Assembly (NCBI GenBank): GCA_016213825.1
Contig: JACQZP010000030.1
Span: 124,001 to 188,000 of the forward strand
Direction of reading: 5' to 3'
Source: Acetobacterium woodii
Lineage (GTDB): Bacteria; Bacillota; Clostridia; Eubacteriales; Eubacteriaceae
DNA length: 64,000 bases
Shown: piece by piece, positions 20,276 through 38,350 of the stretch
Layout: each line of letters starts with the position of its first letter
Numbering within the stretch: position 1 is the first letter of the stretch
Program-made: the position numbers and the translations under genes
The notes under the pieces: model-generated
Database searches by the model: none
Told to the model about the DNA's origin: nothing
Seen by the model: the letters and a program-made list of their open reading frames with translations, nothing else

Positions 20276-21187
20276 ATGTTGAATGATTTAGAAAAGGAAT
20301 TTGACAATCTGCCAAAGGAAGAAAAGGCTAAAGCGGTTGAACAAATACTGGATCGTTTTATTAAGCATTCAGATGATGCTGAAAAAACTCAGTTGATGAT
20401 GAATGTCATGCCGAAAATGATGGGAAATGAAATGTCGATGATGAAAATAATGTGTCAGCAAATGATGGCTCCGCAAATTGGCAACGCCAAAACCAGCAAC
20501 ACGCATGGTTCTAATTCTTGCTGTAGTGACAAGAATGAATCAATGTTTTCAACAGTAGAAATAAAGAATATTTTTGATGATTGGGTACTTCAGGTTCAAG
20601 AAGAGATAAACAATCTAAGAACTGAAAATAAAGGGATCAGTAAAGAAGAACTTGCCCAAAAAATTAAAATTTCAGTCGAGAGTCTGGAATATTTTATCAA
20701 AGACGACATTGCGAATGAAAATCTAACGAGCTCTGATTTTGAAGTGATAAAAATAGAAAAAATAAATAATATTTGTCCGATGTGTGAGGATTATGCCAAA
20801 GAACAAACCAAAAAACCAGTCGTTATTATGAGTTGTGAGGGGGCTTGCCTCCGTGGTGAAATATCAAGACGGGCAGCCAATCATATTTGCCACGATTTAA
20901 TCCCAGCTAAAACGGTTAGATTATGTCTGGGTGGCGCTTTCACAAAAGACGGCGGCCAAAGAAATTTGGTCAAAAATGCCGAACGGGTTATAGCGCTGGA
21001 AGGTTGTTTCATCAAATGTGCATCACGAATGATCAAAGGCGTCGTTCCTGATGCTGAGCCGGAAGTGATCATCACCGATAAACTCTTTACTTTTGATACA
21101 AATATATTTGGCATTAACGAAATGACCAAAGAAGAAATTCATGATAATTCCCTTGAGGTCGCAAAAAAAATTGTTGAACAATTATAA
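20276..21187 (+). CDS. Multidomain DGC protein with helical N-terminus
   Basis: 303 residues. Residues 1-90 are helical and Met-rich and end in SNSCCSDKNE. Residues about 95-150 include GISKEELAQKIKISVESLEYF, which looks like a helix-turn-helix or small helical domain. Residues about 160-300 form a DGC domain: NICPMCEDYA, VIMSCEGACLRGEISRRAA, LCLGGAFTKDGGQ, and EGCFIKCASRMIKG, where the DGC triplet itself is EGC. It follows the second arsR by 50 bp with AAGGAGG. It could be a metalloid sensor or chaperone; function unknown. Confidence 0.65.
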   Translation: MLNDLEKEFDNLPKEEKAKAVEQILDRFIKHSDDAEKTQLMMNVMPKMMGNEMSMMKIMCQQMMAPQIGNAKTSNTHGSNSCCSDKNESMFSTVEIKNIFDDWVLQVQEEINNLRTENKGISKEELAQKIKISVESLEYFIKDDIANENLTSSDFEVIKIEKINNICPMCEDYAKEQTKKPVVIMSCEGACLRGEISRRAANHICHDLIPAKTVRLCLGGAFTKDGGQRNLVKNAERVIALEGCFIKCASRMIKGVVPDAEPEVIITDKLFTFDTNIFGINEMTKEEIHDNSLEVAKKIVEQL

Positions 21188-21347
21188 AGTGTGTATAATA
21201 AGGAATTTTAATTTCCCAAACCAATTCAACACGATGATTTATTGACAATCACTTGAATTAATGATAAAAATAGTTATATAAATGGCGTAAAAAGTTGACT
21301 GAAACCTGAGGCTTTTGAGAAAATGAATAAGCTATCATTTTAGAAAA

Positions 21348-21923
21348 GTGGTGAAAAAAGTGATTGGTTGTATTTGGGACGAATTTAGTAAGCCGCTAAA
21401 AGGATATATAAAAAAACGTGTCGATAATGAGGAAGATGCCGAAGATATTCTACAGGAAGTCTTTATCAAGATCAATAATAATCTGAAGAATCTCGAAGAT
21501 GAAAAAAAGATTCATGCATGGATCTATACCATCGCCCGGAATGCCATCACTGACTACTATCGAAAAAACAGCAAAAGACCCCAACTCACAGAACTGGATG
21601 AGAATATTTCAGACAACAGCCCGGTGGAATTGACCGCCAACCTGGAAATTGCCGCATGTCTTAAGGGGATGATCAACAACCTGCCTGAGAAATACAAAGA
21701 GACAATTCTACTTTCAGAATTTGAAAAGTTATCCCAGAAAGAAATGAGCGAAAAATTGGGAATGTCCATCTCCGGCGTAAAGTCCCGAGTTCAGCGGGGA
21801 CGAAAAATGCTTAAAGAAATGTTACTGGGATGCTGTCATCTTGAATTTGACAGTCTGGGTCATGTGATTGACTATGAACATAAAGAAAAAAATTGTAGAT
21901 TTTGCAAGAAAAAGGACGTTTAG
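21348..21923 (+). CDS. sigZ: ECF-type RNA polymerase sigma factor SigZ
   Basis: 191 residues. Region 2 contains DNEEDAEDILQEVFIKI and the aromatic WIYTIARNAITDYYRK; region 4 has SQKEMSEKLGMSISGVKSRVQRGRKML. The SigZ-specific tail CCHLEFDSLGHVIDYEHK followed by CRFCKKK (CxxC) is present. Two GTG codons (21348, 21351) and a third at 21360 are possible starts, none with a strong ribosome site, so the start is uncertain and translation may be weak. No anti-sigma gene is adjacent; the Cys-rich tail may itself sense redox or metal (inference). Confidence 0.85.
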   Translation: MVKKVIGCIWDEFSKPLKGYIKKRVDNEEDAEDILQEVFIKINNNLKNLEDEKKIHAWIYTIARNAITDYYRKNSKRPQLTELDENISDNSPVELTANLEIAACLKGMINNLPEKYKETILLSEFEKLSQKEMSEKLGMSISGVKSRVQRGRKMLKEMLLGCCHLEFDSLGHVIDYEHKEKNCRFCKKKDV

Positions 21924-21938
21924 TTGCGTCCTTTTTTT
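21909..21938 (+). terminator. Terminator overlapping the sigZ stop codon
   Basis: AAAAAGGACG/CGTCCTTTTTTT with the TAG stop inside the eight-base loop. Confidence 0.85.
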
Positions 21939-21990
21939 GGTATTACGTCTTTATAGGTAGAAGATATTAAATTAAAAGAGGTGTTTAAAG

Positions 21991-22539
21991 ATGACGAATG
22001 AAAGTAATTCAGGATGTTGTTCAGGAACAACAGGGTGTTGCGGAAGCGTAGAAGAGATAAAAATTATAAGAAACAAAATAACAATTGATTTTCTATATCT
22101 TGATTTGAGTGTCTGTACTCGCTGTCAGGGTACCGAAAATACCCTAGATGAAGCTTTGAAGGAAGTTGCCGCTGTACTTGAAGCAACTGGGACAGAGGTA
22201 CAACTAAACAGAATCCATGTAAATACCAAAGAGTTAGCAGTAACCTATAAATTTCTCAGTTCACCGACAATCCGTGTCAATGGACATGATATTCAGATGG
22301 AATTTAAAGAAAGTATGTGTGAATCCTGTGGTGATTTGTTTGGGGATGTCGTTGACTGTCGCGTTTGGATTTATCAAGGCCAAGAATATAATGTGCCGCC
22401 TAAGGCGATGGTTGTTGAAGGAATCCTTAAGGCAGTCTATGGTGGAAATATAGCTGTTAATGTTGCTGAACAGGAATATGTGATACCTGAAAACTTAAAA
22501 CATTTCTATGATGTTATGGAAAGTAAAAAATTAGATTGA
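21991..22539 (+). CDS. DUF2703 protein, thioredoxin-like Cys-rich
   Basis: 182 residues. A Cys-rich head (SGCCSGTTGCCGS) precedes a thioredoxin-like segment with LSVCTRCQGTENTLDEAL (C42-X2-C45). A second pair lies in SMCESCGDLFGD, where SSPTIRVNGHDI is the cis-Pro-like stretch. I recognise the family as DUF2703, of unknown function and often near arsR genes. The double CC head resembles metalloid-binding tails of ArsD-type proteins, so it may be a metallochaperone or disulfide reductase for this island (inference). Ribosome site AGAGG. Confidence 0.75.
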   Translation: MTNESNSGCCSGTTGCCGSVEEIKIIRNKITIDFLYLDLSVCTRCQGTENTLDEALKEVAAVLEATGTEVQLNRIHVNTKELAVTYKFLSSPTIRVNGHDIQMEFKESMCESCGDLFGDVVDCRVWIYQGQEYNVPPKAMVVEGILKAVYGGNIAVNVAEQEYVIPENLKHFYDVMESKKLD

Positions 22540-22572
22540 TGAAGTTTTTGAGATAACTATAGCAGATGACAT

Positions 22573-22620
22573 AAATACTCAGTGGAATGAGAACTTCCAC
22601 TGGGTATTTATTTATTTTTT
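22573..22620 (+). terminator. Terminator after the DUF2703 gene
   Basis: AAATACTCAGTGGAA/TTCCACTGGGTATTT with a seven-base loop, then a T-rich run. Confidence 0.85.
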
Positions 22621-22793
22621 GAAAAAAAGGTTTAACCAAGAATTGATGGGTAAAAATAATACAGTGTGCGAGTGAAAATGTTAAAAGATGAAGAGTACAA
22701 TGAAAAATGTGGAAAAAATGTAATAAATAAACGCAGAGATAATTAAAAATAACGAAATGGTTAGATAATGGCACAAGTTAAAATAAAATAATG

Positions 22794-22818
22794 TGATCAA
22801 GAAATAATCAATTGATCA
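22794..22818. promoter_or_regulatory. Inverted repeat, candidate activator site for the sigma-54 promoter
   Basis: TGATCAA-N11-TTGATCA (arms 22794-22800 and 22812-22818). The centre is about 135 bp upstream of the predicted start, a usual distance for an enhancer-binding protein. The rest of 22621-22913 is AT-rich with no gene. Confidence 0.4.
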
Positions 22819-22913
22819 AAAGTAGAACAATTATAAAATTAATTAACGCGTAATAATTGAACGATAGCGCTGTGGTTTGAATCAAGAATCCACTTAATTC
22901 GGTTCTTTTTTAA

Positions 22914-22930
22914 TTGGCACGTTTATTGCT
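22914..22930 (+). promoter_or_regulatory. Sigma-54 (RpoN) promoter of the mop locus
   Basis: TTGGCACG-N4-TTGCT is a full match to the -24/-12 consensus. GG (22916-22917) and GC (22928-22929) are separated by exactly ten bases. The predicted start is about 22941, at the first base pairs of the tandem repeat. The gene for a matching activator ends the locus at 38350. Confidence 0.88.
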
Positions 22931-22938
22931 TTATTTAA

Positions 22939-23082
22939 ATGCATGAACAAATGCATGAACAAATGCATGAACAAATGCATGAACAAATGCATGAACAAAT
23001 GCATGAACAAATGCATGAACAAATGCATGAACAAATGCATGAACAAATGCATGAACAAATGCATGAACAAATGCATGAACAA
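22939..23082 (+). repeat. Perfect 12 x 12-bp tandem repeat in the mop leader
   Basis: ATGCATGAACAA is repeated exactly twelve times with no mismatch. It begins at the predicted sigma-54 start site, so it should form the 5' end of the mRNA, followed by 80 nt of unique leader (23083-23162). In frame 1 it reads (MHEQ)12 then NYDHKYSQNH, in frame 2 (MNKC)12; neither has a ribosome site. Each unit contains ATGCAT, a 6-bp palindrome. Copy number can change without changing reading frame. Function unknown; mRNA stability, regulation, or a leaderless His-rich peptide are possibilities. Confidence 0.95.
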
Positions 23083-23162
23083 AATTATGATCACAAGTAT
23101 TCTCAAAATCACACCAGTAGCCTTGCAAAAGTGTGACAGATCAAGCTAATGGAGGAAACAAT

Positions 23163-24185
23163 ATGAAGGTAGTACCTGTTCGTGAATCAGTGGGTATGTT
23201 CCTGGCACATGATATGACCCAGATCATCCCTGGGGAGTTTAAAGGAGCAGCATTTAAGAAGGGGCACATTGTACAGGAAGAAGATATTCCCCGATTATTG
23301 AACATGGGAAAGGAACACATTGCCATTATTGAATTCAATGATGGAACAATCCATGAAGACGACGCGGCCCTGCGATTAGGAAAAGCGGCCGCGGGAATCG
23401 GCGTCGAATACGTCGGCGCATCCGAAGGGAAAGTGACGATGACAGCAACGCAAACGGGATTGCTAAAAATAAATGTGCCAGTTCTCCAGGAGATCAACGA
23501 ACTGGGCGAAATGATGATGGCAACCCTTCATACCGATACCATGGTGACAAAAGGAACCCTGGTCGGCTCGACTCGAATCATCCCGCTTTCCATTGAAAAT
23601 GAGAAGCTGGTTGCGATGGAAGAATTGTGCCAGCAAAGTGAGCCCATTGTGCAAGTGCTGCCGTTAAAAAAATTCAAAGTCGGGGTTGTAACCACTGGCA
23701 ATGAAATATTTTATGGCCGGATCGAAGATAAATTTGGCGATGTGATTAGAGAAAAATTCGCCGAACTTGATTCCTATGTATTTAAACAGGTTTTTTCCCG
23801 GGATGACTCGGGCATGATTGCCCAAAGCATCCTGAACTTAATCGCAGAAGGTGCAGACATCGTCACCGTGACCGGTGGCATGTCGGTGGATCCGGATGAT
23901 GTGACCCCGGAAGGAATTGGCAAAACGGGGGCTAAGTTTGTTTCTTATGGCGCACCCACCTTACCTGGAGCGATGTTTTTACTTTCTTATCTGGGTGACA
24001 TTCCCGTGTTGGGATTACCCGGTTGCATTATGTACAGCCACCGAACCGTTTTTGATTTGGTGGTGCCAAAATTGATGGTCGGCGAAAGATTAACCCCCAA
24101 AGACATCTCCAAACTGGGACACGGCGGACTTTGTTCCACCTGTCCGGAATGTCATTATCCCAATTGCGGGTTTGGCAAAGGTTGA
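23163..24185 (+). CDS. MoeA-like molybdopterin-binding protein
   Basis: 340 residues related to MoeA/MogA molybdopterin-binding proteins; probably inserts molybdenum or matures the cofactor for the aldehyde oxidoreductase behind it. KVGVVTTGNEIFYGRIEDKFGD, TVTGGMSVDPDD and ALPG-like GLPGCIMYSHRTVFD are family signatures. The C-terminus carries GLCSTCPECHYPNCGFGKG, a four-Cys segment not usual in MoeA. GGAGG precedes the ATG at 23163; a GTG ten codons upstream extends the frame without support. First unambiguous gene of the sigma-54 transcript. Confidence 0.85.
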   Translation: MKVVPVRESVGMFLAHDMTQIIPGEFKGAAFKKGHIVQEEDIPRLLNMGKEHIAIIEFNDGTIHEDDAALRLGKAAAGIGVEYVGASEGKVTMTATQTGLLKINVPVLQEINELGEMMMATLHTDTMVTKGTLVGSTRIIPLSIENEKLVAMEELCQQSEPIVQVLPLKKFKVGVVTTGNEIFYGRIEDKFGDVIREKFAELDSYVFKQVFSRDDSGMIAQSILNLIAEGADIVTVTGGMSVDPDDVTPEGIGKTGAKFVSYGAPTLPGAMFLLSYLGDIPVLGLPGCIMYSHRTVFDLVVPKLMVGERLTPKDISKLGHGGLCSTCPECHYPNCGFGKG

Positions 24186-24238
24186 TTTTAGCATCCATAT
24201 AGAGTAATTAGTTTTTAATATTTTAAGGAGGATTTCAC

Positions 24239-26965
24239 GTGGAAAAAAAGACATTGTTCATTAACGGGATTCAAAGGACGGTAATTGTTGATCCAGAAAC
24301 AACTCTGGCAAATTTAATCAGAAAGCAACAGGGTTTAACCGGAACAAAGGTTGGCTGCGGTAAAGCAGAATGCGGCGCCTGTTCAGTTATTTTAAATGGC
24401 AAGGTAGTACGGTCCTGTGTGACCAAAATGAAACGAGTTGACGACGAGTCGGAAATTATCACCATTGAAGGTGTTGGAACGCATGATAACCTGCATCCAC
24501 TGCAATTGGCATGGATGGTCAATGGGGCTGCTCAGTGCGGTTTCTGCTCACCTGGTTTTATTGTTTCGGCTAAAGCGTTGTTGGCAGAAAACGCTAGTCC
24601 AACCAGAGAAGAAGTTCGGGCCTGGTTCCAAAAACATCGAAATGTCTGTCGTTGTACTGGTTATATCCCCATCATTGATGCCGTTATGGATGCTGCAAAA
24701 TTAATGCGTGGCGAAATCAAAAAAGAAGATCTATGGTTCCAGTTAAAAGATGGCGCTTCCATTATGGGATCAAACATGGCTCGTCCCTCAGCACTGGCAA
24801 AAGTTACCGGAACTTGGGACTTTGGTGCCGATTTAGGATTAAAACTGCCTGAAAACACCTTACACATTAAACTGGTTCAGGCTCAGGTGTCTCATGCCAA
24901 TCTTATTTCTGTTGATACCTCAGAAGCAGAAAAAATGGAAGGCGTCTTCAAAGTCATCACCGCTAAAGATGTTCCCGGAACCAATCGTATTAACGGTTTG
25001 GCATTCCCAACAAATTTAGGGGATGGTTTGGAACGTCCGATTTTAAATGACAAAAAAATCTTCCAATATGGGGATGCCATCGCTATGGTATTGGCTGATA
25101 CTCCAGAACAGGCCGAAGCAGCAGCGGCAAAAGTTATTGTCGAAGTTGAAGAATTATTACCTTACATGAGCGCACCGGCTGCTATGGCTGATGATGCGAT
25201 TGAAATTCATCCTGGCACACCAAATATTTATTTCAAAACCAATATCGTTAAAGGCGATGATCCTGCGCCATTAATGGAAAAACTACCAAATGTTATTGAA
25301 GATGACTTCTATGTTGGTCGTCAACCACATTTACCATTAGAGCCAGATGTTGGATTTGCATACTTTGACGAAGAAGATAACCTGATGGTTCATTCCAAGA
25401 GTATTGCCCTTCATTTTCATCAGTTAATGACGGCTGAAGCGATTGGCGTTGATCCAACCAAATATTTTATCGTTCAAAACCCAACCGGCGGAACCTTTGG
25501 TTATAAATTCAGCCCAACCATTGAAGGTTTACTAGGGGTTGCTGCATTGGTGACCAAAAGACCGGTATACTTGGAATTCAACATGTATCAACAGATTACC
25601 TACACCGGAAAACGTTCACCATTCTTTATGAATGTAAAAATGGCTGCCGATGAAAATGGTATCCTGAAAGCAATGGAAACTGACTGGTCAGTAGATCATG
25701 GTCCATATTGCGAATTTGGCGATCTGGTAACCACCCGTGGTTCTCAATTTATCGGCGCTGGTTACAATATTCCCAACATTCGTGGTGAAGGCCGAACCGT
25801 TGCCACCAACCATGCCTGGGGTTCAGCGTTTAGAGGCTATGGCTCGCCACAGAGTTTGTTCGCCTCTGAAACCTTAATTGATATGCTGGCTGCTCAAATG
25901 GGCGAAGATCCATTGGAACTCCGTTATAAAAATGTCTATCGTCAAGGTGATACCACACCACAAGGTTGTGAACCAGATGTTATTGCACTGCCACAGGCCA
26001 TTGATACAATCCGTCCGATTTATCAGGCTGCTAAAGCAAAAGCCGAAGCCCTGAATGCAGCAGGCGGAGACACTAAACATGGCGTTGGAATCTCATTAAA
26101 CATCTATGGTTGCGGTCTTGATGGCCCAGACTCATCAGAAATGTGGGTTGAATTAACCAAAGATGGCGTTACCGTAGGGGATTCATGGGAAGATCATGGC
26201 CAAGGCGCTGATATGGGAACCTTAACATTTGCCCATGAAACGCTAAGACCTTTAGGAATTAAACCAGAACAAATTAAACTGGTTATGAACAATATGAAAC
26301 TGACACCAAACAGTGGACCAGCGGGCGGAAGTCGTTCCAACGTATTAACCGGGAACGCCATCAAAGTGGGTTGTGAAAACTTATTGGCAGCCATGAAAAA
26401 AGCTGATGGTACTTTCAGAACCTATGATGAAATGGTCGCTGAAGACCTACCATTACGTTATGCCGGTGTTTGGACAGCACCTTGTACGGCACCATCAGTA
26501 GAAACCAGCCAGGGAAATCCATTCCCAGTTTACATGTATGGCGTGTTATTGTCAGAAGTTTCTGTTGATACCACTACCGGAAAAACCAATGTAGATAAAT
26601 TGACGCTTGTTTCTGACTGTGGAACCATTACCAACAAAACTGTTCTTGAAGGTCAGTTATGGGGCGGTTTAACTCAGGGGATTGGTTTAGCTTTAAGTGA
26701 AGACTTCGAAGATCTTAAAAAACATACAACCTTAACCGGATGCGGGATTCCGCAAGTGAAGGATGTTCCGGATGAAATTGTCTTGATTCATCAGGAAACA
26801 CCACGACCATTAGGACCATATGGAGCTGCCGGTGCTGGTGAAATGCCATTGTCTGCACCACATGCTTCAATCGCAAATGCGATTTTCAATGCCTGCGGCG
26901 TTCGTATCAAACATTTACCAGCTTATCCAGAAAAAGTACTTGAAGGTTTAGAAGCCTTAAAATAA
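24239..26965 (+). CDS. mop: Molybdenum aldehyde oxidoreductase (Mop type)
   Basis: 908 residues, GTG start behind AAGGAGG. Very similar to the aldehyde oxidoreductase of Desulfovibrio gigas (907 residues) as I remember it. Plant-type [2Fe-2S] cysteines are C40, C45, C48, C60; the second cluster has C100, C103, C137, C139, the same numbers as in D. gigas. The molybdopterin domains show GGTFGYKFSPT, WGSAFRGYGSPQS, and the catalytic glutamate near 868 in GAAGAGEMPLS. All redox parts lie in one chain, with no FAD subunit, so an external acceptor is needed. It oxidises aldehydes to acids, or could run in reverse with low-potential donors. Confidence 0.95.
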   Translation: MEKKTLFINGIQRTVIVDPETTLANLIRKQQGLTGTKVGCGKAECGACSVILNGKVVRSCVTKMKRVDDESEIITIEGVGTHDNLHPLQLAWMVNGAAQCGFCSPGFIVSAKALLAENASPTREEVRAWFQKHRNVCRCTGYIPIIDAVMDAAKLMRGEIKKEDLWFQLKDGASIMGSNMARPSALAKVTGTWDFGADLGLKLPENTLHIKLVQAQVSHANLISVDTSEAEKMEGVFKVITAKDVPGTNRINGLAFPTNLGDGLERPILNDKKIFQYGDAIAMVLADTPEQAEAAAAKVIVEVEELLPYMSAPAAMADDAIEIHPGTPNIYFKTNIVKGDDPAPLMEKLPNVIEDDFYVGRQPHLPLEPDVGFAYFDEEDNLMVHSKSIALHFHQLMTAEAIGVDPTKYFIVQNPTGGTFGYKFSPTIEGLLGVAALVTKRPVYLEFNMYQQITYTGKRSPFFMNVKMAADENGILKAMETDWSVDHGPYCEFGDLVTTRGSQFIGAGYNIPNIRGEGRTVATNHAWGSAFRGYGSPQSLFASETLIDMLAAQMGEDPLELRYKNVYRQGDTTPQGCEPDVIALPQAIDTIRPIYQAAKAKAEALNAAGGDTKHGVGISLNIYGCGLDGPDSSEMWVELTKDGVTVGDSWEDHGQGADMGTLTFAHETLRPLGIKPEQIKLVMNNMKLTPNSGPAGGSRSNVLTGNAIKVGCENLLAAMKKADGTFRTYDEMVAEDLPLRYAGVWTAPCTAPSVETSQGNPFPVYMYGVLLSEVSVDTTTGKTNVDKLTLVSDCGTITNKTVLEGQLWGGLTQGIGLALSEDFEDLKKHTTLTGCGIPQVKDVPDEIVLIHQETPRPLGPYGAAGAGEMPLSAPHASIANAIFNACGVRIKHLPAYPEKVLEGLEALK

Positions 26966-36421: not shown

Positions 36422-38350
36422 ATGAATAGAAATGTATATCAAGCACTTATCAAAGAATCAAAGGAACGATGTGCCCTATATGACATTAAAGAAGATCAGG
36501 TTTTCAGTAAAAAAATGATCGACAACTCGGAACTTCAGAAAAAATTTACTGAAAACCGGGATCTCATCCTCACTGCTTCACCTTATATGGAGCACCTGAT
36601 GAGCATCGTCAGGGGAAATAATTTTTTCGTCCTGTTGACGGATAAAGAGGGTTGTATCCTTAACGCCATTGGCGATGAAAAAATATTATCGGAAGCCTTT
36701 GAATTAAAAATGGTCGCCGGTGCCTATATGAATGAAGAGAACATTGGAACCAATGCCATGTCTGTCGTCATCAAATCCGAAGAAGCCATCCAATTGTCTG
36801 GCCAAGATCACTTCATCAAAGCCTATCATCGTTGGACTTGTTCCGGAGCACCCATTAAAGATCCCAATGGTAACCTCATCGGCGCTTTGGATCTCACCGG
36901 TTATTCAGACTCAGTTCATCCCCATACCCTGGGGATGGTTATCGCCGCTTCCAATGCCATCGAAGAAATGTTAAAAGTTAAAGAATATAATCGGCTCCAA
37001 AACATGACCAATAAACATATTAAAACCATTTTCAATTCCATGCCAGTGGCCATCCTCACTTCAGATCTGGACGGAGGCATCAAGATATATAACCAGAAAG
37101 CCATGGATTTATTCGGAAACAAATACAAACAGTTGGCGGCTACCAATGTGGCTGAAATCATTGAAGAATGGGAAAATATTAAAGAAGCCATCCATTCAGA
37201 ACGGCATGTCAATCGGATCATCAACATTAAAGCCTTGCGAAATAACTTTCATTGTCAAATGACGGCCAGTCCCATTTATAACCCGCAGGATGACAGCATC
37301 GAAATTGTCTTTGTCTTAAAAGAAGACCAATCGAAAAAAATTGGCAAAAACGAGCAACCCTACTATACCTTTGATAAAATCATGGGGACGGATAAAGATT
37401 TTGTCAGTACTATTGAGTATGCCAAGAAAATATCAAATAATCGATCCACCATTCTCATTTTAGGGGAAAGTGGCTGTGGCAAAGAAGTCTTTGCCCAAGC
37501 CATTCATAATTTCAGTAAGAGAATGGATGAACCTTTTGTGGCCCTTAATTGTGGGGCCATTCCCAATCAGCTAATTGAGTCCGAACTCTTTGGTTATGAG
37601 GAAGGCGCCTATACCGGTGCTAAAAAAGGTGGTAACATCGGTAAATTTGAACTGGCCAATAACGGCACCATTATGTTGGATGAAATCGGTGAAATGCCTC
37701 TGGATATGCAAACCCGGCTGCTCCGGGTGCTGCAGGAGAACGTGATTACCCGTATCGGCAGCCAGAAATCAATTCCCATTGATGTGCGCATCATTGCAGC
37801 CACCAACAAAGACCTGAAAAAAGAAGTCGAAATGGGACGATTCCGAAAAGATCTGTTTTATCGTCTCAATGTGCTTCCACTTTATTTACCGCCATTGCAG
37901 GAAAGAAGAAGTGATATTCACATTTTGTATCACTATTTTATGAAAAATCTGTCAGCAAAATATGACAAACCGGAATTTCAAATTTCGGAGGAAGCGATGA
38001 TGGTTTTAGAAAATTATAATTGGCCGGGAAATGTCCGGGAACTGGAAAATGTGGTCGAGCTGATGATCAATACCGAATCCTTTCCAACCAAGTACTTTAT
38101 TGAAAATATCAATCAGGAAGCCCGCAGTCAAAACAACTATACCCGGGAACACAGTGCCCTGGATTTTATCGAAGAAAGTCTGGAAACCGTCGATAAGAGC
38201 AAGTTGGATATCTGCTATGTGGAAAAAGAACATATTGCCCGGGTTTTAAAACTATATAAAGGCAATATCAGTCAGGCCGCCAATGCTTTGGGGATTCAGC
38301 GGAATACCCTTTACAGTAAAATCAATAAATATCAGATCGCGATCGATTAA
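36422..38350 (+). CDS. Sigma-54-dependent activator (AcoR-like: GAF-PAS-AAA-HTH)
   Basis: 642 residues. N-terminal GAF-like sensor (about 50-190: NEENIGTNAMSVVIKSEEAIQLSGQ is split over it), PAS domain (about 200-310: FNSMPVAILTSDL), AAA+ domain with Walker A GESGCGKE near 348, sigma-54 contact loop GAYTGA near 395, Walker B MLDEIGEMPL, and a Fis-type HTH (NISQAANALGIQRNTLYSKINKY) at the end. The GAF arrangement matches AcoR-type activators of aldehyde or acetoin metabolism. It is the last gene of the locus and the natural activator of the sigma-54 promoter at 22914; a direct ligand, for example an aldehyde, is inferred. Confidence 0.92.
   Translation: MNRNVYQALIKESKERCALYDIKEDQVFSKKMIDNSELQKKFTENRDLILTASPYMEHLMSIVRGNNFFVLLTDKEGCILNAIGDEKILSEAFELKMVAGAYMNEENIGTNAMSVVIKSEEAIQLSGQDHFIKAYHRWTCSGAPIKDPNGNLIGALDLTGYSDSVHPHTLGMVIAASNAIEEMLKVKEYNRLQNMTNKHIKTIFNSMPVAILTSDLDGGIKIYNQKAMDLFGNKYKQLAATNVAEIIEEWENIKEAIHSERHVNRIINIKALRNNFHCQMTASPIYNPQDDSIEIVFVLKEDQSKKIGKNEQPYYTFDKIMGTDKDFVSTIEYAKKISNNRSTILILGESGCGKEVFAQAIHNFSKRMDEPFVALNCGAIPNQLIESELFGYEEGAYTGAKKGGNIGKFELANNGTIMLDEIGEMPLDMQTRLLRVLQENVITRIGSQKSIPIDVRIIAATNKDLKKEVEMGRFRKDLFYRLNVLPLYLPPLQERRSDIHILYHYFMKNLSAKYDKPEFQISEEAMMVLENYNWPGNVRELENVVELMINTESFPTKYFIENINQEARSQNNYTREHSALDFIEESLETVDKSKLDICYVEKEHIARVLKLYKGNISQAANALGIQRNTLYSKINKYQIAID

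Follow-up and report, generated by a model that had tools for sequence, protein, structure and literature searches.

The window, the whole 64,000-nucleotide stretch of Acetobacterium woodii DNA analysed here, contains a molybdenum-hydroxylase gene cluster preceded by a predicted sigma-54 promoter and by twelve identical tandem copies of a 12-bp unit. The features considered below are these, in window positions:

22571–22611, + strand: terminator-like stem-loop after the upstream DUF2703 gene, between that gene and the leader (predicted by a consensus scan; 17-pair stem, T tail)
22794–22810, + strand: TGATCAAGAAATAATCA, a UAS-like dyad that departs from the motif at one position and lies 120 bp before the promoter element; 9 of the 11 upstream stretches have a site at −117 to −120
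22813–22829, + strand: UAS-like dyad TGATCAAAAGTAGAACA, an exact TGNTC-N7-GANCA; 9 of the 11 upstream stretches have a site at −98 to −101
22914–22930, + strand: sigma-54 −24/−12 element TTGGCACG-TTTA-TTGCT, from direct reading; found in 12 of 12 orthologous loci, this one included
22939–23082, + strand: 12 exact tandem copies of ATGCATGAACAA, from direct reading, TRF and a genome-wide unit count
22941, + strand: predicted transcription start, 12 nt past the −12 GC, from sigma-54 promoter geometry
23083–23162, + strand: rest of the leader; the last part (about 23134–23162) is conserved in the alignment, with a Shine-Dalgarno sequence GGAGG at 23151–23155
23163–24185, + strand: first gene, a molybdopterin-binding-domain protein (MoCF_biosynth, PF00994; Pfam)
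24239–26965, + strand: second gene, a mop-type molybdenum hydroxylase of the aldehyde oxidase/xanthine dehydrogenase family with 2Fe-2S domains
from 27128: third gene, an iron-sulphur/flavin protein
36422–38350, + strand: sigma-54 activator with GAF, PAS, AAA+ (with GAYTGA) and Fis-type HTH (HTH_8) domains; found at this position of the cluster in all 8 relatives read

The original prediction placed mop directly behind the leader, but the MoCF_biosynth-domain gene comes first and mop second. Between the third gene and the activator we identified seven further same-strand frames. The downstream DNA was read in eight of the 11 relatives that carry the locus, and all eight have a counterpart of each of these frames, a first gene 93–96% identical to the one studied here, and an activator gene 83–99% identical. 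Upstream of the array, the segment 16180–22539 encodes a DUF2703 protein, assigned by Pfam, together with ArsR-like regulator frames and an ArsA-like ATPase frame whose two halves resemble each other; the ArsA-like and ArsR-like frames were judged from their translations. It is perhaps an arsenic or metal response block.

Promoter, upstream dyads and candidate activator

Searches with the intergenic region and gene start against 41 genomes, our own included, returned matches in 16. The collection holds one genome per species and 19 genomes of this genus. We took as orthologous our own locus and those of 11 same-genus relatives (G001–G004, G007–G012 and G018), and excluded the single matches in G005, G014 and G036, both matches in G033, and weaker further loci in G008 (C34), G010 (C1:3128503), G018 (C570) and G003 (C32). 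Six loci outside the ortholog count (L021, L022, L023, L027, L034 and L035) also entered the locus comparison, which gave no row for L023; nor did it give one for the ortholog in G008 (L020), which was later read by eye. The orthologous locus was not found in 7 of the 19 genus genomes, some of which are incomplete, so that the conservation described here holds where the gene was found.

The promoter element carries GG at −24 and GC at −12, 10 bases apart (TTGGCACGTTTATTGCT). Transcription from sigma-54 promoters usually starts about 12 nt downstream of the −12 GC, and the predicted start at about 22941 is the third base of the first array unit. The pattern TTGGCACGNNNNTTGCW occurs three times in the whole genome, and a search across the genus found it in 11 of the 19 genomes, in some cases at another locus. 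A shorter form with one mismatch allowed was found three times in the window against 1.14 expected, a number reached in 8 of 100 shuffles; taken by itself this window count falls short of significance, and the case for the promoter comes from conservation. The element was recovered by pattern at 11 of the 12 loci, in slightly different form in G009 and G011, and appears at the twelfth (G008) as TTGGCACAGTTATTGCG. These sequence comparisons, together with the single gene in the genome that encodes a sigma-54 DNA-binding domain and with the linked activator gene, agree with the original prediction of a sigma-54 promoter starting inside the first unit, and we regard a sigma-54 promoter before the orthologous gene as well supported. 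Sigma-70-like sites numbered 7 against 4.3 expected (s.d. 1.8); a weak one, with 9 of 12 positions matched, overlaps the array end at 23064–23091 and is a possible other start.

The 11 upstream stretches of 250 bp each contain 25 dyads with at most one mismatch, 7 of them exact, compared with means of 0.5 (maximum 3) and 0.01 (maximum 1), respectively, in dinucleotide shuffles. This count is partly circular, because the motif was derived from the sequences on which it was counted, and the exact form matches once in the window (TGATCAAAAGTAGAACA) against 1.15 expected, no more than chance. The positions of the dyads are better evidence than their number, with 22 of the 25 located at −117 to −120, −98 to −101 or −66 to −68. 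Sigma-54 activator domains match at 13 places in the genome, 10 of them above 200 bits. By its position, the activator at 36422–38350 is the natural candidate regulator and the TGNTC-N7-GANCA dyads its likely sites. The locus and genome thus hold a sigma-54 gene, an activator gene and upstream dyads; that the activator binds these dyads is what we infer from their arrangement.

A second, similar promoter, TTGGCACGATTATTGCGATA, was observed at G000:C21:110497–110516 (L069); a further sigma-54 activator domain (C21:109242–109739) lies about 0.8 kb away. Its 20 bases are identical in six other genus genomes.

The tandem array and its absence from relatives

A perfect 12 × 12-bp repeat had been reported behind the −24/−12 element, and both direct reading and TRF bear this out. 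TRF detected a single array in the 64-kb window (22937–23083; period 12, 12.2 copies, 100% match, no indels). All 12 exact occurrences of the unit in the 3.94-Mb genome fall inside the array, and the unit pattern read backwards has zero occurrences in the same 3.94 Mb. A two-unit pattern was absent from the genome_contigs and viral_contigs collections, a search that may omit very near genomes. With the unit found nowhere else in the genome and the two-unit pattern unmatched in these collections, we ruled out a dispersed element. Open-licence literature searches found no paper on a ATGCATGAACAA array; a report on A. wieringae (PMC10134865) has a passage on tandem insertion sequences, not on this array.

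For comparison we sampled 864,000 bases of the same genome, comprising the window and 40 further stretches, with a 5-kb overlap between two of them. In this sample TRF returned 42 rows, 12 of them with at least three copies, and only the array and one other were fully matched at three or more copies. The array is far beyond chance and an outlier among the sampled repeats of its own genome. The other fully matched row is also a 12-bp tandem repeat, with 3.1 copies of TATTAATTTTCG (L223:3493–3529, G000:C4), and a further stretch holds four exact copies of an 18-mer. In 400,000 bases of the relative G010, 3 of 17 TRF rows had at least three copies and none was a perfect short-unit array. Tandem repeats with much larger units were also observed: 471-bp units, about 99% alike, extend over more than 6 kb at the start of G010:C1 (L191:1–6318), and 462-bp units are present in 2.5–2.8 copies, matched at 82–87%, at L082:17313–18590 (G000:C20).

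The array is absent from all 11 same-genus relatives with the orthologous locus, and from a sequence point of view it would be dispensable for promoter function in these organisms. Counted from the predicted transcription start up to the start codon, leaders are 49–56 nt long in 9 of the 10 relatives that were measured, against 93 nt in G018 and 222 nt in our genome. With a single unit, our leader would measure 90 nt, and in this form it aligns end to end with that of G018, where the stretch beside the remaining unit shows weak similarity to the unit. Over 500 bp of the first gene, the sisters G018 and G010 share 98.0% identity, and each shares 94.4% with our genome. A longer leader may have been present early in this trio and been lost in G010, or it may have originated twice; expansion of the array after the split from G018 and G010 would be the simplest reading of the alignments. 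Among at least 591 matches listed for more distant homologs, we inspected the upstream stretches of 80 loci and found a sigma-54-like site within 400 bp in three (one of them L099, in G007) and no pure array above 2.1 copies.

Probable origin and possible effects of the array

Given these comparisons, we consider it probable that the conserved sigma-54 promoter transcribes the molybdenum-hydroxylase cluster, probably driven through the paired upstream dyads by the activator encoded at the cluster's end, and that a 12-nt stretch at the transcription start was recently expanded in this lineage to 12 copies, most likely by slippage. The expansion would have extended the untranslated leader, from some 90 nt to some 222 nt, and supplied a run of AUGCAU sequences able to pair mutually; at most the array would be a copy-number-dependent modulator of promoter escape or of the stability of the mRNA, and it may be close to neutral. 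The original prediction left a choice between recent expansion and strong selection. Absence from all 11 relatives favours the former, and we find no support for long-term selection. The identity of all twelve copies suggests youth or ongoing homogenisation. As this is one genome of the species, slippage and recency are read from one sequence, and, as the closest relatives share about 94% identity with it over these 500 bp of the first gene, the age implied by 'recent' has only loose bounds. Each unit starts with the palindrome ATGCAT, and single strands of both senses are predicted to form hairpins slightly better than those of shuffles (z = −1.37 and −1.07). The palindrome and the hairpins on both strands may favour slippage, although the hairpins exceed shuffles only modestly.

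Phase-variable (contingency) 5′-leader repeats are defined by variation in copy number and by its effect on expression; one further feature of this kind, a pure tandem repeat in or beside the leader, is present here. The array could be regarded as a working rheostat, in which slippage would vary the copies in the population and the AUGCAU stems at the very 5′ end would, by their number, determine the stability of the mRNA or the escape from the promoter and, through either, how strongly the whole cluster is expressed. We judge this unlikely. The array does sit at the predicted start, and repeats in upstream or leader positions have precedents in hmw1A (PMC8262952) and uspA2 (PMC7302503). The predicted minimum-energy fold of the leader RNA is −64.3 kcal/mol against −52.5 in shuffles (z = −2.62), with 3 of 200 shuffles as good, and the predicted energy of the array falls with copy number in unequal, parity-type steps (−35.2, −37.3, −42.9, −45.0 and −50.6 kcal/mol for 10, 11, 12, 13 and 14 copies). 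On the other side, tandem arrays of shuffled units fold as well as the real one in 15 of 200 cases, and in the centroid structure, competition among many pairing registers leaves the array unpaired. The absence of the array from all relatives also weighs against such a function, and a metabolic cluster would be an atypical contingency locus.

As to the tuning through RNA folding at ATGCAT that was originally suggested, the models predict pairing through AUGCAU, but the computed exposure of the Shine-Dalgarno sequence is independent of the number of copies (0.13–0.15 for 1 to 24 copies; 0.18 without units), so that the model gives no support to translation control by this route. An effect of copy number on mRNA decay or promoter escape may be compatible with the same predictions. 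We hold somewhat more doubtful still the specific proposal that a slippage-prone palindromic 12-bp array lying exactly at a sigma-54 start is an evolvable rheostat, with the number and parity of 5′-terminal AUGCAU stems tuning, in an acetogen, the expression of a whole molybdenum-hydroxylase cluster through the stability of its mRNA or through promoter escape. A known structured leader RNA was rejected, as an Rfam search of 21000–24500 gave no family match at E values up to 1.

It is improbable that the copy number is a product of the assembly, in which a pure array of 144 bp was collapsed or misjudged. The genome is a 37-contig draft that may derive from short reads, and the array length is near common short-read lengths; PMC12817950 reports repeat variation hidden by such reads. 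Both flanks are nevertheless intact and agree with the relatives, and a collapse shortens arrays and does not create them. The draft may still misstate the exact number of copies.

That the array encodes a leader peptide, either (MHEQ)12 with a 17-residue tail or (MNKC)n with a tail, which would control the downstream genes translationally, is very improbable, contrary to a suggestion in the original prediction. Two frames of 65 and 68 amino acids are open through and past the array, the unit length is divisible by three, and a leaderless MNKC start at 22943 is conceivable. Any 12-mer that is stop-free in a frame, however, gives open frames. A Shine-Dalgarno sequence is absent, the MHEQ frame has its first start codon before the predicted transcription start and no Pfam match, and alignment and reading by eye showed no counterpart in the leaders of the 11 relatives; the translatable, conserved leader frame of a peptide attenuator was not found. 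Hardly credible is a role as decoy for the activator, in which the TGAACA of each unit, the right half of the upstream dyad, would be presented 12 times in one orientation: the array contains 12 TGANCA half-sites, but the opposed half TGNTCA occurs zero times, leaving half-sites and no dyad, the 12-bp spacing differs from that of the dyads, and such a four-base core is fairly frequent by chance in a 12-mer.

Slippage expansion beside the conserved promoter is the reading we retain. The array is most likely a young, perhaps neutral expansion next to a well-supported promoter and a candidate member of the 5′-leader tandem repeats.

Comparison with known systems

Contingency loci are usually described in the surface genes of pathogens. 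If the array does tune expression, it would be a contingency-type repeat in the sigma-54 metabolic cluster of an acetogen, away from such genes. Even if it is neutral, it would show that about 130 nt of extra repeat can be tolerated right where transcription from a conserved sigma-54 promoter begins. The array is also a possible strain marker.

For the promoter, the closest counterparts are the aor operons of Clostridium under AorR and sigma-54, which, like our locus, combine a sigma-54 promoter and an activator at an aldehyde oxidoreductase gene with TGT/ACA-type UAS dyads (PMC6615313). The same paper describes TGT/ACA dyads in fifteen activator groups, places most UAS 100–250 bp upstream, and mentions the GAYTGA variant of the contact motif. 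The Clostridium operons are aor-moaD, whereas our cluster encodes a mop-type molybdenum hydroxylase.

For the array, we compared four repeat systems. In Beggiatoaceae, direct repeats of TAACTGA in intergenic DNA are likewise short and lie just 5′ of genes, where a post-transcriptional role was proposed (PMC4679880); this one heptamer recurs in 169 sets, each with two to six copies, in contrast to our single array at a single locus. In Mycobacterium tuberculosis, tandem repeats also precede genes, including glpD2, a gene of glycerol use, but are described as lying in promoters and their variation was measured within populations (PMC12817950). In uspA2 of Moraxella catarrhalis, the number of AGAT repeats affects the mRNA level; as in our locus, the tract lies upstream of the reading frame, but the unit is a tetranucleotide, the product a surface protein and the variation measured (PMC7302503).

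The nearest in kind is hmw1A of Haemophilus influenzae, in which 7-bp repeats downstream of the active promoter P2 set the length of the 5′ leader by their copy number, and more repeats lead to less transcript and protein, by a mechanism that its authors left open (PMC8262952). Both are pure short repeats that set leader length, in our case as predicted. The hmw1A repeats belong to a pathogen adhesin gene and were shown to change in copy number, whereas the array, known from sequence alone, combines a sigma-54 promoter and a palindromic 12-bp unit with a metabolic cluster.
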